From: an uncultured Sulfuricurvum sp. | GTDB taxonomy: Bacteria > Campylobacterota > Campylobacteria > Campylobacterales > Sulfurimonadaceae | DNA length: 64,000 nucleotides | NCBI GenBank assembly: GCA_903844635.1 | Contig: CAIMUF010000063.1 | Location: 1-64,000 of the forward strand | Reading direction: 5' to 3' | Part shown: in pieces, positions 1 through 7,629 of the stretch | How the letters are laid out: each line of letters begins with the position of its first letter | Numbering within the stretch: the stretch's first letter is position 1 | Made by a program: the position numbers and the translations under genes | Notes under the pieces: generated by a model | What the model was told of the DNA's origin: nothing | Databases searched by the model: none | Seen by the model: the letters and a program-made list of their open reading frames with translations, nothing else

Positions 1-22
1 GACATACAGTGTTATAAACTTC

Positions 23-28
23 TATAAT
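23..28 (+). promoter_or_regulatory. Putative -10 box (TATAAT)
   Basis: A TATAAT hexamer lies about 58 bases upstream of the ATG at 87. No clear -35 is seen, as expected in Campylobacterota where that element is weak. It would drive the lipoprotein and LolA-like pair that follows. The 9-bp direct repeat that begins inside this box could be its operator. Confidence 0.4.
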
Positions 29-45: not shown

Positions 46-86
46 GATACGTAGCTTGACTTGTAAAAGTAATTTAGGAGTATGTA

Positions 87-113
87 ATGAAAAGTATAGA
101 ATGAAGAAACTTT
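87..113 (+). other. Interrupted start region: ATG, five codons, then in-frame TGA
   Basis: A Shine-Dalgarno-like TAGGAG at 75-80 is correctly spaced from the ATG at 87. From there the reading frame is M-K-S-I-E-stop-R-N-F-L-R, in the same frame as the lipoprotein that follows. The TGA is at 102-104. If it were CGA (one C-to-T transition) the peptide would contain R-R-N-F-L-R, a close match to the twin-arginine export consensus (S/T-R-R-x-F-L-K). It would be followed by a hydrophobic stretch and the lipobox L-T-G-C. The ribosome-binding site therefore points to a start that the TGA separates from the body of the gene. Confidence 0.6.
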
Positions 114-1727
114 TTGCGATACAGTGTTGCTGCAGCGGTTGTATTACCTGGAATGGTATCTCTTACAGGATGTGGAGGAGGTGGCGGTTCGAGTGGACCT
201 TCTCTCAATTCAACTGATACTCAAGTGTCAGCGATTACTTCACTGCAAAGTGCTGGAAATACGCAAAATGCGCAGTTAAGTTCTGTTTCTTCAGAGCTAT
301 TAACAGGGAGCTCTCAAACTTCTCAAACAGGGTTAATGCTCGCGTCTACAGCTAGCACTCCTCCTCTTCCAACTTATCCTTTATTTAAAAGACATGTAGG
401 TATGCTACCCAATGCATATGCGACCTGGGGAGACTATTTAACTGCACATAATCTCGCTTACAAGCAAGCGAACGACCAAATCACTAAGCTTAAAGCCTCA
501 TTGCGTCTTTATGGATTCAAAGAAAAATCTTCTGGGCAAGTAGCAGCTGTGGAACAAACTTCTACTAATCAACAACTTGTCGGAGCAAATGTCATAGTAC
601 CTCTGAGTACTTCAGTAATCGATACAGCGACAGTTTTGATTAACTTGTTTATTTCATCATCTAGTGTGTCTTCTGGCTCGACGTTATTGACTACTATTAA
701 CGATATGCTTATATCGATACTTACAGGGATTAAAAATAAGAGTTTAGATAATCTGACATTTGATTCAAAAATAAGTATTTTAACGAGTATTGCAAGAATG
801 TCTGTAGCAGTTGTTAGTGTTCTTGGAATTGTTGGCTTGAAACAACTTAAAGAACAATCGGTTACTGGGTTAACAGCAGATGCTCAAACGGCAGCTTTAG
901 CAAGAGCGGTTAAAACTCAGAGTTTGTTAACACTTGTATTGACGTCTACAGTAAATTATATGATGAACTATAATATTTCTAAAATACAAGCTGATTTAGC
1001 ATCTACAAACAGTAGCTTTACTCCTCCCTTCACTGATTCAGCGACATTGGCTGCTAGCTTGAATCAGCAAGCTACTCTTTTGCAGACTCTTGGATCAATA
1101 CTGCAATCTGTCTCCCAAATATATACTGCAAATGATACAACGACATTAACAACATATGCACAAAACGTTGGATTTTTATTTACTGCTGAAAATCAAACAT
1201 CATCAGATGCAGCAACTTTTGCAACTCATATGGCAGATCTTGCATATCAGTTTACGAGTCAGATGGAGCAAGATGCGTATCACTTTGCAATGCAGGGCAT
1301 GGAATACGGCTATCTCTTTGCTTCACGCGGCGAAGAAGTAGGTCTGATGGCGGATCGTGTACTTTGGATGGCAGTTCAAATCGGAGTAATGGCAGATCGG
1401 ATTGGACAGATGGCAGATCGGATCGTTTATACCGAACAGCTCATAGTTTATACCGAAATGCTGATTCTCGATTTCGGATTGCTAATTTATGGTGGAATGA
1501 AACAGATTAGCAATACGATGCTCATGGGAATGGCGATTATCTTTGACTGTCAGTGGTATACACCCTCAACAAGTGATCCAATATTGACTGTTATATCTGA
1601 CATGACCCAGACAATGCTGACAAATATGCAAGAGTATGAAAAAATAGTTCTAAATAATCAATTAGCCCTTCAAACAATTACACAGGATGCACTTAAATGG
1701 TTGCCATCAAATACCTCAGTATCTTAG
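114..1727 (+). CDS. Large lipoprotein with heptad-like MADRI repeats; N-terminus disrupted
   Basis: The open frame from the TTG at 114 encodes 537 residues of unknown function. Residues 1-20 form a hydrophobic signal ending in the lipobox L-T-G-C, then a Gly run, so the mature protein should be a lipoprotein. The middle is rich in Ser, Thr and Gln. Residues about 405-455 carry a repeating pattern: MADRV, MADRI and MADRI near 411, 426 and 433, then VYTEQLI and VYTEMLI seven residues apart. This suggests a long amphipathic or coiled-coil helix. TTG 114 has no good ribosome-binding site, and the better-placed ATG at 87 is cut off by TGA 102-104. The 3' end overlaps the LolA-like gene by 31 bases, implying coupling. 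The gene may be a recent pseudogene, or the stop may be a sequencing error. Confidence 0.6.
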   Translation: MRYSVAAAVVLPGMVSLTGCGGGGGSSGPSLNSTDTQVSAITSLQSAGNTQNAQLSSVSSELLTGSSQTSQTGLMLASTASTPPLPTYPLFKRHVGMLPNAYATWGDYLTAHNLAYKQANDQITKLKASLRLYGFKEKSSGQVAAVEQTSTNQQLVGANVIVPLSTSVIDTATVLINLFISSSSVSSGSTLLTTINDMLISILTGIKNKSLDNLTFDSKISILTSIARMSVAVVSVLGIVGLKQLKEQSVTGLTADAQTAALARAVKTQSLLTLVLTSTVNYMMNYNISKIQADLASTNSSFTPPFTDSATLAASLNQQATLLQTLGSILQSVSQIYTANDTTTLTTYAQNVGFLFTAENQTSSDAATFATHMADLAYQFTSQMEQDAYHFAMQGMEYGYLFASRGEEVGLMADRVLWMAVQIGVMADRIGQMADRIVYTEQLIVYTEMLILDFGLLIYGGMKQISNTMLMGMAIIFDCQWYTPSTSDPILTVISDMTQTMLTNMQEYEKIVLNNQLALQTITQDALKWLPSNTSVS

Positions 1728-2428
1728 GTATAAGTGTAGTTTACCTCTATGCTGCTCCCAATGCGAGCGAAATTTATCAAAAAACCGTAAAAGTTCTCTC
1801 CATTCCACAGATCAAGTTTCAAGTATCCTCGACTATTAGGAGCGGAAGTTATCTGGAGAAACAGATGTTTAGTTTGGCACGAATGGAGGGAGAGAAAGAT
1901 TCGTCCCTCCTTGTGTGTTTTGCCTCTCCTTCAAAAATAAAAGGGACAGCGATGCTGTTCAAAAAAAATAAAAGTGATTCGCAAACTTTCGTCTATTTTC
2001 CGGTACTTGATCGTGTTCGTATCGTACCAAAGCAAAACGAGAAAGAGGAAGCTTTTGGTTTGGGACTTTCGTATTCTGAAATGCAAAATAGTACAGATCA
2101 ATTGAGTTTTCTTAAGACGATTAGTGATCATGGAAAATCGTATTATCAACTTTTAAAAAATGTTGAGGGGACTAAAACAGTTTATACGATTTCGGTCGAT
2201 GATGTTATTTTGAAAAAAATGGATGTTTTTGAAAATAATCAGCTTTTAAAAGAAGTATTTATCGATGAAGTAAAAGCACTCCGTGGGCAAACAATTATTA
2301 CAAAATGGCACATTCTTGATCATATTAAGGATGAATCTTTGTCATACGATATTAATGAAGAGTCGATTCAAACTGTTGTTGACAGTAGATTATTTAACCA
2401 ATCCGCCCTTACACACTGCAAGCCTTAA
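1697..2428 (+). CDS. LolA-like outer-membrane lipoprotein-sorting protein
   Basis: A 243-residue protein with an N-terminal signal peptide (about residues 1-20, ending near Y-A-A-P), so it is periplasmic. The body reads like the LolA_like family (Pfam PF17131): an I-K-G-T-A-M-L-F strand, then a Y-F-P-V-L-D-R-V-R-I segment near residue 95 and a G-L-G-L-S-Y segment near 118. In that family the segments form a curved beta-sheet that binds lipid or lipoprotein. Such proteins usually sit next to RND permeases, and an RND-like gene follows here on the opposite strand, its end overlapping this gene by 20 bases. It overlaps the lipoprotein gene upstream. It probably carries a hydrophobic cargo across the periplasm; the cargo is unknown. 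Confidence 0.7.
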   Translation: MVAIKYLSILGISVVYLYAAPNASEIYQKTVKVLSIPQIKFQVSSTIRSGSYLEKQMFSLARMEGEKDSSLLVCFASPSKIKGTAMLFKKNKSDSQTFVYFPVLDRVRIVPKQNEKEEAFGLGLSYSEMQNSTDQLSFLKTISDHGKSYYQLLKNVEGTKTVYTISVDDVILKKMDVFENNQLLKEVFIDEVKALRGQTIITKWHILDHIKDESLSYDINEESIQTVVDSRLFNQSALTHCKP

Positions 2429-4274
2429 GATAACGGCGATGTAAGATTGGAACAATCCAGAGAATAAAGAGGAGATTGGCAGCGAGTAAGATTCCAAGCT
2501 CAAAGGCAAATGCTCTCATTATTCCCCCCACAAAAAACATCCCGCCTAAGCAAATCAGAACTGAAAAATTTGAGATAAAGCTCGGCTGGAGGACACTTCT
2601 TTCGCATGCTTCGCCTTCACGTTTGTAACAGACAAAAAGCTGGATAAGTGAGTCCGTGATGAGTCCGGCATATAAAATCACATTGAGCAGGGTTAGAATA
2701 GTAATTTGTTTGTTGAAAATGAAGTGAAAAAATCCTAAAACTCCCAATGAGAAAAGTGCGGAAAAAACAATGGTTAAGACACTCATAATGTTTCGGCAAT
2801 AAAACCAAAAAAACAATGCTGTTGCAGCGAGAGTAATCATCAACCCCAGTAAAAACTCTTGAACAAAAATATGAATGAAATAATCAAAGTCAGAAATTTT
2901 CCCGCTAATAGTAACATTAAATTCAGGATACTGCTCTCCTAATTCATCAATACTATTCATCATCGTTCGCATGGATTCGGTTGTCATGGTCAAGGGAATT
3001 GCTACAACAATAGTGCTTTTTTTCCGATCGGAAGACCACAGAGAAAAAGGGTGTTCTATAAAACTTTCTGCCAATAAAAATTGAGCTAAAAGATTAGGAT
3101 TGGTTTTGTCGGGTGCAGATTTTGAAAATTCATCAAATGCTTTTGGGGCACTGGCAATAATTTTTCCAGGTATTAAAGGCTCAAGTTTTTCTTGAAACTG
3201 AATAAGTTTTTGCATGATGCGTTCATTGGTAAAATTTCCGTTAAGAGTACTTACATTCACAACAAAAGGGAGTGTTGGCAGTCTTGTTTCTTCAAAATGT
3301 TCGATTTTTTTCAATTCCAGGGAAGAACTTGGAAGTAAATTGACAATATTTAAATCAATATTTATAGGATGATGAAAGATACTGATCATGCCTAAAAGAG
3401 CAAGAAATAGGAAGAAAATACTCTTTTTTTGAATTTTTAACAGAGTTCGCGATGGTTTGAGAGCTAATCGCTGATAATGGAGTTGCGAGGAGAAAAAACG
3501 CATGAGATAAATGCGAATATTCATGTAAATATGTAAAACTCCCAATCCAATCATCATCATAACACCAAATGAATGGATTAATCCAAAATGGGACGTCACT
3601 AAAAATAAGGCACTTAACATGGTCGCTGCAACTGAAATTTGAATACCGAAAAAAAGACGTTTCGTATCCATCCCTTCCGCATAAATATAGTTAATAAGTG
3701 TTAGCGCGTAAATGACTAGAAAAATAAGAGCCAGTAAAGAGGCAGAATTAATTTCGAAAAAACCAAGATTTAAAATAATTGCCAACGCTAAAAAATACAG
3801 TGCCATTTCAATAATAATATCTATCCATAAGCGTACAGGGATAAAAAATAATAAAATAATGAGTACAAAAGGAAAAATAATGAGGGTATAAAACTCAAGC
3901 TCATGAAAAAAATTTTTGAACAAAATATTTCCAACAACTGAGGTTCCACTGCGTGAATACTCTTGAGTTTGCTCGAGTACATCATTGAGTTTTGAAATAT
4001 CAAAAATGAGGAGATAGGTATTTTTATACTCTTCCAAAAGCATATATCGATCTATGAGATGGTTATTTTTGTACTCTTGAGGAATGGATGGATCCGATAT
4101 GTTACAAAACAGGTACTGTTGATGCCCATTGAGTAAAGCTGTGGTATCGCGAGCGGCAGGACTTTTTGGTAAAAAGGAACTCCATTCGATTGGATCAACA
4201 GGGATATGAATGGCAATAGTGTAATCACATATTAAAATTGCCAATATTATAATGATTTTTTTTATAAGACTCAA
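2409..4274 (-). CDS. RND superfamily (MMPL-type) membrane transporter, compact form
   Basis: A 621-residue polytopic protein. TM1 is near residues 5-23. A short periplasmic loop of about 100 residues follows, then a block of five or six helices (about 130-265) and TM7 near 285. A second periplasmic region (about 305-470) and a C-terminal helix block (about 475-615) complete it. This is the duplicated RND layout, but the first loop is much shorter than the 200 or more residues usual in MMPL/HpnN-type exporters. The start is a TTG whose last bases form the TGA stop of the upstream barrel gene, so the two are translationally coupled. With the barrel and LolA-like genes nearby, transport of a lipid or other hydrophobic molecule to the outer membrane is the best guess. 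Confidence 0.7.
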   Translation of the reverse strand: MSLIKKIIIILAILICDYTIAIHIPVDPIEWSSFLPKSPAARDTTALLNGHQQYLFCNISDPSIPQEYKNNHLIDRYMLLEEYKNTYLLIFDISKLNDVLEQTQEYSRSGTSVVGNILFKNFFHELEFYTLIIFPFVLIILLFFIPVRLWIDIIIEMALYFLALAIILNLGFFEINSASLLALIFLVIYALTLINYIYAEGMDTKRLFFGIQISVAATMLSALFLVTSHFGLIHSFGVMMMIGLGVLHIYMNIRIYLMRFFSSQLHYQRLALKPSRTLLKIQKKSIFFLFLALLGMISIFHHPINIDLNIVNLLPSSSLELKKIEHFEETRLPTLPFVVNVSTLNGNFTNERIMQKLIQFQEKLEPLIPGKIIASAPKAFDEFSKSAPDKTNPNLLAQFLLAESFIEHPFSLWSSDRKKSTIVVAIPLTMTTESMRTMMNSIDELGEQYPEFNVTISGKISDFDYFIHIFVQEFLLGLMITLAATALFFWFYCRNIMSVLTIVFSALFSLGVLGFFHFIFNKQITILTLLNVILYAGLITDSLIQLFVCYKREGEACERSVLQPSFISNFSVLICLGGMFFVGGIMRAFAFELGILLAANLLFILWIVPILHRRYLKACSV

Positions 4275-5728
4275 AAGACACTTCTTATGAGGATACTTAG
4301 AGTATTCGTAGCACTGTTATGCTCAGAAACTATACCTTGAATCACTAAATCTGTACGGTCATATTCTAATGTAAAGCTTGGATTGATAGAAATATCATTC
4401 ATTGTATCAACGTGTGCAGCGATCAAACGATTTTCAAAATGTCCACGAAAAAATGACCATCGTACGGGCTCAAATTTGGTAGTCATCATTGCAATCATCG
4501 CATCTTTATTGTATTGGCTAAGATGAATATACTGTGTCTCGAGAGAATAATAGACTGAGGGCGTAAGATGGTCAATGGCTAATCCCAGCGAAGTAATCGA
4601 ACCATAGTTATTCAGAAGCGGAACTTTGTCACGATAGGCAAGTTCGCCTCTGATTCCATACGAATCAGTCGTTGTTTCACCATAGATTCCAGCTTGTTGA
4701 TATCGAAATCCTTCAACGGACTTGATGGGGTCTAAATCCAATGAAGCAATATAGTTCGTCAAATCTGGTGCAGCACTTTGTCCATTTTCATATGTTAGTG
4801 CTGCATTTAAAAGGTTTTGATCAACGCGAATCAAAGGAATTTCAGAGTATCGATTGAAATACAAAAAGCCCATTTTTCCGTAATCATTGGTATACTCACT
4901 CACAAATCCAAGCGAAGAGTTTTGAACTTTCAACGACCTTGAGGGTCTTTTGGACTCAATATCATGAGAGAGAAAAGGGCTGATTGCATTGGTGTATAAA
5001 GGAGAAAAAATCTCTTGACCGATGGGATCTTGATTAAAAAATTCCTGATAGTGTTGGGGTACAAATTGATTGATGACATAATTAGTGTAAAACCCCGTGT
5101 AGTCTTGATATTTACTGTCGTAGGGCTGAACAAAAAATGAAATCTTCATTTCATCTGTAGGAAAAATATCGACCTGTCCCATCCAAAGAGGTATTTTTTT
5201 TATGGTTATTTTTGGGTCATCAAAAAATTCATACCGAATAGGATTGAGGGTATCTACCATGCTTAGATAATCCAATACTCCTACTTTGGAAACCATTTTT
5301 CCGACTTTAACATGAACATTATCTCCGAAATAATCAACGTAAAGGTGATTAATCGGAAGGTCAGGATGTGGAAGCCCTTTTTGCCCATACACGCCACCCG
5401 AAATTTTCCAGGTATCGTTCCCATATTCTGTATCAAAAAGGACAAAAGCATAGGGTGAATTTGAGAAAAAAGTTTTATTGCTCATGGTGCGACCAATCAG
5501 AGTTGCTTCGATGAATTCTTTGGTTTCAGTTTTTATTTCTTTTACTTCATCCATTGGAAGCTCAACACTCTCTTGCAGCAGTGTTTCTTCTTGAGATTGA
5601 CGATAGTGGGATAATTTTTCTTGGAGTGTTTTAACGTTAACTTGCATTATTATCTCATCGGCAGATAGAAAAGCACAATAAAGTAATGGAGTTAAATAAA
5701 TGGCTAATTTTTTAATAAAAGTGTCCAT
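4271..5728 (-). CDS. Outer-membrane beta-barrel protein of the RND/LolA-like cluster
   Basis: About 485 residues from the ATG at 5728; a TTG at 5740 is also possible and would overlap the upstream stop by four bases. A signal peptide of about 21 residues is followed by a polar helical segment (residues about 25-60, rich in Glu and Gln), then alternating aromatic/polar strands to the end. The C-terminal strand ends in Phe (S-V-F), the usual outer-membrane insertion signature. The barrel has phrases such as K-V-G-K-M-V-S-K-V-G-V-L, as seen in porin-like DUF1302-type partners of RND exporters. It may form the outer-membrane exit or receiving site for the RND protein encoded just downstream. The family assignment is tentative. 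Confidence 0.6.
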   Translation of the reverse strand: MDTFIKKLAIYLTPLLYCAFLSADEIIMQVNVKTLQEKLSHYRQSQEETLLQESVELPMDEVKEIKTETKEFIEATLIGRTMSNKTFFSNSPYAFVLFDTEYGNDTWKISGGVYGQKGLPHPDLPINHLYVDYFGDNVHVKVGKMVSKVGVLDYLSMVDTLNPIRYEFFDDPKITIKKIPLWMGQVDIFPTDEMKISFFVQPYDSKYQDYTGFYTNYVINQFVPQHYQEFFNQDPIGQEIFSPLYTNAISPFLSHDIESKRPSRSLKVQNSSLGFVSEYTNDYGKMGFLYFNRYSEIPLIRVDQNLLNAALTYENGQSAAPDLTNYIASLDLDPIKSVEGFRYQQAGIYGETTTDSYGIRGELAYRDKVPLLNNYGSITSLGLAIDHLTPSVYYSLETQYIHLSQYNKDAMIAMMTTKFEPVRWSFFRGHFENRLIAAHVDTMNDISINPSFTLEYDRTDLVIQGIVSEHNSATNTLSILIRSVF

Positions 5729-5736
5729 CAAAAATA

Positions 5737-6522
5737 TCAATAATTATAGATTAGTGCGGCATTAAAAATATTGAAATTTGATTCGGAACGAGGTTCAAAC
5801 CATTTATCTGAATGTACTGTTGATTTTTCTATATCCCATGTCTGGTAGGTATAGGCGAGTTTTAAATCCCATGATGGGCTAATTGCATGTATCCAGGGAA
5901 TAGAAATACTATAGCCATCGGTACGTCCTAAATCAAATATTCCATGTTGATTAGATTCCATCTTTGGTGAAAAAGCTCTGTGGTATTCAGCCGAAACTCC
6001 AATGGTGTCATTAGGGAAGATATTTTCACTAAGTCCAGTAGAAATAGAGCCATATGGCCAAACATACTGCTCATTATGACCATCGGCTAAAATTCTTTCC
6101 CATAATCGGTATCCGATTCCAAGACGCACAAACCATAGTGCTTGATTCAATTTTTTAGTCTCACTATAGCCAATACTACCCTCACTAATGGTATTTTTAG
6201 TAGTTAAATTATTAACAGGGCTATTAATAGTTCCATCACTGTTAAGATAAAATCCATCATATCTACTATTCCCCTGATATCGCAAAAAATCAATATCAAG
6301 AAAGCCACCATCACCATCAAATCCATCGCTTATTTGAGTAATATAATTCAGACCAAATCCAAATAATGCATCTGCTATTTCAGAATCAGCAAATGACCCA
6401 TTTGTATTGAATTCTGTGTAATCCATTGACATCGTATTAATGCTAATGCTCAACTCACTGTCGTTTGCAAATGCGCAAACAGTAGAAAATAGAATATAAA
6501 TTAATGTATTGTATTTATTCAT
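5737..6522 (-). CDS. Outer-membrane beta-barrel protein, unassigned
   Basis: A 261-residue protein with a signal peptide cleaved near residue 19 (C-A-F-A), so it is exported. The rest alternates polar and aromatic residues in strand-length blocks and ends in Y-N-Y, an aromatic terminus typical of outer-membrane barrels. Segments such as F-G-F-G-L-N-Y and G-I-G-Y-R-L-W are typical small-barrel strands. It is the first gene of a minus-strand run with the larger barrel and the RND protein, all with 4-base or near-zero junctions. No specific function is recognised. Confidence 0.55.
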   Translation of the reverse strand: MNKYNTLIYILFSTVCAFANDSELSISINTMSMDYTEFNTNGSFADSEIADALFGFGLNYITQISDGFDGDGGFLDIDFLRYQGNSRYDGFYLNSDGTINSPVNNLTTKNTISEGSIGYSETKKLNQALWFVRLGIGYRLWERILADGHNEQYVWPYGSISTGLSENIFPNDTIGVSAEYHRAFSPKMESNQHGIFDLGRTDGYSISIPWIHAISPSWDLKLAYTYQTWDIEKSTVHSDKWFEPRSESNFNIFNAALIYNY

Positions 6523-6633
6523 ATTAAAAAGCCTCTAATTATAATAAACTATTATACTGTATTTGACACAATATTTTATTAAATATGATTTATTAGCACA
6601 AATATATGATACTATTTTTAAAAAAGATGAATA

Positions 6634-7629
6634 ATGAAATTTTTTTTACTTCCAATTTTAGTAACGAATTTAGTGTATGCCGACAGTTTAGATATTACGG
6701 ATGTGAGTAAGGGTCTTACCAGTATCAGTGAATATTCCAGCGCACTTAACGCTTCTACTCTTGGGGTCTTTGGAATCATGACACACGGAGAAGTAGAAAT
6801 AGGCAAGGGAACTATCTCTTTGGAAGGAGGCTTTTTAGGTTTAAATGGAAAAATCAGTGATGACGTTATAATCTACACTCTTAAAGCTGAACACCAAAAT
6901 ATTCCAATTGGTCATATCAACTATAACTATAAAATTAGCTGGTTTGATTCCAAAGCAATAGATCAGGGAATCTCAACATACAATGGCACTGTCAGTAATA
7001 TCAACTCGTATACAGGACCTTATACGGGTAATGCTTTGGATATTCCATCGATGGAATACCGGATAAAAGGACTGGATGCAGATATAGGTTTGGGATGGAA
7101 TCTCATTGATATTGGTCCCCATGATTATTTTAGCATAGGAGGAGATGTTGGTATTTCTACGCCATGGATTGAATCTACCCAGAGTGCGAGTTCATCAAGT
7201 TCTGGAAGTTCAAATGCCATTGCCTCGTTATATGGCATGGGAAATACAAAGATATGGACCTATAAAGCAGGGGCGCAACTCAGAGTAAGTAAAAGTTTAG
7301 CCCCTTATTTATCATTGTATGGTTCTTCCATTTATGCCTATCAATATGCTTCAGTAAAAAATGACAGCATAGGATTCAAGAGTTATGTCAATGGAACATT
7401 TACTGAAAGTGAGTTAGGTTTACGATATCAGCCGCTGGAAAAAAAATATCCTATAACCAGCTGGTTTTCTATCACGCCTCAATTATATTTTACGGCAGGT
7501 GTTCGTTACAATGAGTGGGTTTTACATGATGTTGCTGTTAATTTGTTTGACCAAAATATCCCACTTCCAAAGAGTGATATGAAAGTGAGCAGTTCCACGA
7601 CATATTTTGGTTTAGGGTATGGATTTTAG
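6634..7629 (+). CDS. Outer-membrane beta-barrel protein, unassigned
   Basis: A 331-residue protein with a short signal peptide (cleavage near V-Y-A-D, residue 16). Repeated Gly- and aromatic-rich strands end in Y-F-G-L-G-Y-G-F with a terminal Phe, the outer-membrane barrel signature. A Ser-rich linker (near residues 187-197) probably forms a surface loop. It is divergent from the barrel/RND operon, with about 110 AT-rich bases between them, and its stop overlaps the convergent receiver-like gene by four bases. It could belong to the same envelope module. No family is assigned. Confidence 0.55.
   Translation: MKFFLLPILVTNLVYADSLDITDVSKGLTSISEYSSALNASTLGVFGIMTHGEVEIGKGTISLEGGFLGLNGKISDDVIIYTLKAEHQNIPIGHINYNYKISWFDSKAIDQGISTYNGTVSNINSYTGPYTGNALDIPSMEYRIKGLDADIGLGWNLIDIGPHDYFSIGGDVGISTPWIESTQSASSSSSGSSNAIASLYGMGNTKIWTYKAGAQLRVSKSLAPYLSLYGSSIYAYQYASVKNDSIGFKSYVNGTFTESELGLRYQPLEKKYPITSWFSITPQLYFTAGVRYNEWVLHDVAVNLFDQNIPLPKSDMKVSSSTTYFGLGYGF

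Follow-up and report, generated by a model that had tools for sequence, protein, structure and literature searches.

The 64,000-nt stretch of DNA analysed here (the window), from an environmental bacterium of the Sulfuricurvum type, opens with a lipoprotein gene whose frame is interrupted by a TGA (102–104, plus strand), and alignment places this codon at the first arginine of a twin-arginine translocation (Tat) motif, encoded by CGA in the nearest relatives. The interruption most likely reflects a nonsense mutation of the ordinary kind, or else an error at the extreme end of a draft contig, rather than a new decoding mechanism. We lean towards a real C-to-T nonsense allele (CGA to TGA) that would mainly silence this single-copy gene.

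Start region and twin-arginine motif

Read from ATG 87, the frame gives M-K-S-I-E-stop-R-N-F-L-R-Y-S-V-A-A-A-V-V-L-P-G-M-V-S-L-T-G-C, that is, MKSIE, the stop and then RNFLRYSVAAAVVLPGMVSLTGC, and it stays open to the stop codon at 1725–1727. On the plus strand it therefore comprises a short ORF (ATG AAA AGT ATA GAA TGA, 87–104) and the rest of the lipoprotein ORF, which counts 537 aa from TTG 114 (MRYSVAAAVVLPGMVSLTGC; 114–1727) and includes a hydrophobic stretch and an LTGC lipobox (117–173, Cys codon 171–173) conserved in the relatives. A Tat motif with Arg-Arg (MERRKFL, MNRRKFL, MDRREFL and similar) opens all 12 full-length orthologs, whose distinct N-termini read MERRKFMRYS, MERRKFLRYS, MDRRSFISVA, MNRRKFLSTS/T (four proteins), MTRRGFISRS, MQKRRSFLKLS, MKRREFMTLA, MNRRNFLALG and MDRREFLTLT. 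In each of them Arg-Arg-x-F is followed by a hydrophobic stretch and a lipobox ending in Cys-Gly-Gly, the architecture of Tat-dependent lipoproteins. The window copy retains the hydrophobic h-region and the lipobox cysteine (YSVAAAVVLPGMVSLTGC), and its genome encodes the translocase (TatC, 231 bits; TatA/B/E, 70 bits), but its n-region, as assembled, carries stop-Arg in place of the twin arginine. The two orthologs from the same genus (contigs G012:C53, NZ_JAQTQR010000019.1, and G024:C213, JAUYSQ010000072.1) read ATG GAA CGA AGA AA(A/G) TTT where the window reads ATA GAA TGA AGA AAC TTT. Since the relatives conserve the residues on either side as well as an arginine at the stop itself, the pattern is more than a chance one. 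The positions given in the earlier note (TAGGAG 75–80, ATG 87–89, TGA 102–104, the T-run 111–115 and LTGC) are all correct, and its proposal that the stop removes an arginine of the Tat signal is borne out by the CGA AGA of both same-genus orthologs and the Arg-Arg of all 12; CGA in relatives at 102–104 was also the outcome that it had named as supporting a mutation.

ATG 87 is very probably the authentic start of the gene, followed by a premature stop, because its distance from the -10 box resembles that in the relatives and its Shine-Dalgarno (SD) match is equally strong. The promoter (1–28, plus strand) consists of a -35 GACA, the leading TT of which is lost to the contig end, and a -10 TATAAT at 23–28, and it aligns with the TTGACA/TATAAT of both same-genus relatives. 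From the -10 box to ATG 87 there are 58 nt, as against 59 in both of these. The SD sequence TAGGAG (75–80, plus strand) forms a duplex of -6.8 kcal/mol with the anti-SD, compared with -6.9, -7.6 and -7.9 kcal/mol in relatives, and lies 6 nt from the ATG rather than 5; the standard anti-SD sequence was used, as an exact pattern search of the draft did not find the 16S 3' end.

A plain DNA alignment places the relatives' ATG opposite ATA 96–98 of the window, and scores this pairing above that with ATG 87 (93.5 versus 84 for G024, 80 versus 77.5 for G012). Replacement of the original start by ATA 96 was nevertheless rejected, as both the distance to the -10 box (58, 59 and 59 nt) and the SD spacing favour ATG 87, followed by an insertion of about 9 bases; its exact homology to the relatives' ATG is tentative. 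The n-region is about 9 bases longer in the window than in the relatives, and the relatives do not share MKSIE; in most of them just one residue separates Met from Arg-Arg (e.g., ME-RR). An imperfect 13-nt direct repeat (79–91 and 93–105, plus strand, 11 of 13 positions identical) may be a slippage trace of this gain. As a case for tandem duplication of the start region the repeat is statistically weak, since 29 of 1000 shuffles, and 10 of 660 window stretches of the same length, contain an equal match. The exact start region had no match in a scan of viral contigs. Structure prediction gave a mean pLDDT of 38.5, from which no conclusion was drawn.

Nature of the premature stop

Two further readings would leave the gene without a nonsense mutation. 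Readthrough or recoding of UGA (as Sec, Trp or Arg) would accord with the frame conserved with relatives on both sides of the TGA, but those relatives carry Arg rather than TGA at this position, and TGA terminates 14 of the 42 long ORFs in the window. Of the tRNA-Sec and the SECIS-like hairpin just past the UGA that mark selenocysteine insertion, neither was found: no tRNA-Sec scored above the family threshold, the seven matches below it coinciding with genes for ordinary tRNAs (Ser, Leu, Tyr, Pro and Glu), and no notable fold lies 3' of the TGA (z-score 0.59). Recoding is thus unsupported and very unlikely. The other reading, loss or gain of a T in the run at 111–115 with ATG 101 as the real start (MKKLLRYS...), has the attraction that a one-T deletion would yield a clean Sec-type signal start. 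However, the relatives match the window in length over the run (AAATTTATGCG, AAGTTTTTACG), in frame with Arg-Arg, so no base is missing and no T need be lost or gained; moreover, ATG 101 has no SD sequence (-0.8 kcal/mol), a lack that the earlier note had itself observed. We rejected this explanation and consider it barely credible. Taken together, all readings beyond a nonsense allele, a base error or a restart at TTG 114 account for very little of the probability.

The position of the TGA makes error a serious rival to mutation. The window begins at the very first base of contig C63 (72,589 bp) in an 86-contig draft genome, so that the stop sits only 102 nt from the contig tip. Nowhere else in the assembly does the sequence of this tip recur, and it overlaps no other contig; it is therefore a dead end, probably thinly covered. 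In short-read assemblies a contig end of this kind usually indicates that coverage was limiting. At such a unique tip a single-read error could survive. Many of the pseudogenes with internal stops in draft bacterial assemblies have a technical origin, low coverage being one of the causes (PMC11017572). The gene described here resembles them in that a lone in-frame stop, close to the end of a contig, interrupts a conserved gene that is intact in other respects, although here the stop lies in the n-region of the signal peptide and nearly the whole mature protein remains in frame 3' of it. That the organism carries an intact gene, with T 102 introduced in error during sequencing or assembly, or taken by the assembler from the allele of a minority strain, is accordingly a possibility to be taken seriously, if the less probable one. 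Against it, the bases flanking the TGA match the relatives well, which argues against a junk tip, the window's remaining long ORFs are tightly packed with no sign of frequent errors, and the weak signal of relaxed constraint described below would have to be a coincidence. A real nonsense allele, on the other hand, is supported by a premature stop opposite a sense codon of intact relatives (CGA in both same-genus orthologs, Arg-Arg in 12 of 12), by a promoter, SD sequence, ATG 87, downstream frame and neighbouring cassette that are all intact, by the presence of TatC and TatA, by the single copy of the gene and by the absence of an indel in the T-run. We consider this allele somewhat probable.

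A third explanation keeps the gene functional, with translation starting at TTG 114, whether directly or through ribosomes that restart past the TGA, and with Sec replacing Tat in export. No other in-frame start 3' of the TGA would keep the signal peptide; a complete lipoprotein signal follows TTG 114, the short ORF with the strong SD sequence ends 9 nt ahead of it, and the C-terminal domain is still constrained. However, TTG 114 itself has no SD sequence (-0.8 kcal/mol), and as all full-length orthologs use Tat such a switch would be unprecedented in the family, which makes the rerouted gene improbable. In a specific and quite doubtful form of this idea, ribosomes reaching the UGA of the five-codon leader ORF would restart at TTG 114, and a single mutation would thereby act as a Tat-to-Sec switch with both the lipoprotein and its coupled LolA-like partner still expressed. 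A literature search found no paper on a Tat-to-Sec switch through a nonsense mutation and restart.

Under the nonsense allele, the sequence is most simply explained by taking ATG 87 as the original start: the n-region of the window would have gained about 9 bases (MKSIE-RR versus ME-RR), a later C-to-T change then making the first Arg codon a stop. Ribosomes starting at ATG 87 would halt after five codons and no full-length Tat-exported protein would be made. A low rate of restart at TTG 114, about 9–10 nt 3' of the TGA, may still give a lipoprotein with a Sec-type signal lacking Arg-Arg, and this residual translation could maintain that of the overlapping LolA-like gene.

Constraint, distribution and gene cassette

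No further stop was found in the 537 downstream codons, although 220 single changes could create one, and the C-terminal domain is about 76–78% identical to that of the nearest relatives. Lineage changes at codon positions 1, 2 and 3 numbered 89, 83 and 99 in the window, 59, 42 and 87 in G024, and 67, 47 and 103 in G012. The ratio of first- plus second-position to third-position changes was thus 172:99 in the window versus 101:87 in G024 (p = 0.04) and 114:103 in G012 (p = 0.02), a weak signal that hinges on the middle region, where the alignment is poor. Of 93 positions that do not vary among the other orthologs compared, the window differs at four and loses a charge at three of these (E>Q, R>C, R>Q). 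In the conserved C-terminal domain, by contrast, changes are not in excess (30:33 versus 22:23), which by these counts excludes a long-dead gene. Together with the charge losses, the codon-position pattern agrees with a recent or mild relaxation of constraint on the window lipoprotein and would weakly fit a real loss, but it falls short of proving the stop genuine.

Neither Pfam nor NCBIfam has a family specific to the lipoprotein; NCBIfam matches to dipicolinate synthase were dismissed, as they reached 21 of 320 bits, far under the cut-off. Its distribution is patchy: the gene occurs in 2 of 40 other genomes of the genus (3 of 41 with that of the window), and relatives are scattered elsewhere in the order and also in Thiomicrorhabdus and Thiotrichales. 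Ca. Thiovulum and three related genomes (L026 4449–5540; L032–L035) encode its C-terminal domain, at 47–52% identity, in proteins of 330–370 residues with no evident signal peptide or lipobox. A secreted-looking protein of 214 residues (L005 1096–1740, genome G058) has only the MADRIGEMADRIVYTE repeat motif in common with the family. The ortholog of Thiomicrorhabdus NP51 (L024 4869–7080) is split in two frames, 4869–6359 and 6286–7080, a possible frameshift or assembly error.

The lipoprotein gene heads a five-gene cassette (window 87–6522). A LolA-like gene (1697–2428, plus strand; PF17131, E 2e-17) overlaps its end, as it does in relatives, and is probably translationally coupled to it. On the minus strand follow an intact membrane protein (2409–4274), with 70% full-length identity to that of a relative, which no Pfam model matches and which appears by eye to be of the RND/MMPL class; a DUF1302-like protein (4271–5740), 70% identical to a homologue in Sulfuricurvum STB_144 (L021) that itself matches DUF1302; and a small predicted beta-barrel protein (5737–6522), 53% identical to its L021 homologue. 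The cassette is conserved in STB_144, which shares the small barrel-like protein with the window, and the core order, a Tat lipoprotein gene with an overlapping or adjacent LolA-like (PF17131) gene and, on the opposite strand, RND/MMPL-like and DUF1302-like genes, is the same in another genome of the order (G039, L036) and in the gammaproteobacterium Thiomicrorhabdus (L023). The window matches the gene order of these three genomes and deviates only at the start region of the lipoprotein gene; its cassette partners are all intact, at 53–75% identity to those of STB_144. A literature search found no paper on a cassette of this composition.

Significance

With every cassette partner intact and both TatC and TatA encoded in the genome, any loss of the lipoprotein would be a recent event, or an incomplete one owing to restart. 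If real, the TGA at 102–104 represents yet another loss-of-function allele of recent origin, or at most provides a natural experiment on whether a Tat lipoprotein can be exported through Sec, and it shows nothing new on decoding. Its position carries a lesson, namely that an isolated stop within about a hundred bases of the end of a draft contig deserves distrust. The intact five-gene cassette, to which no tool gave a name as a whole, is a more useful lead than the TGA itself.
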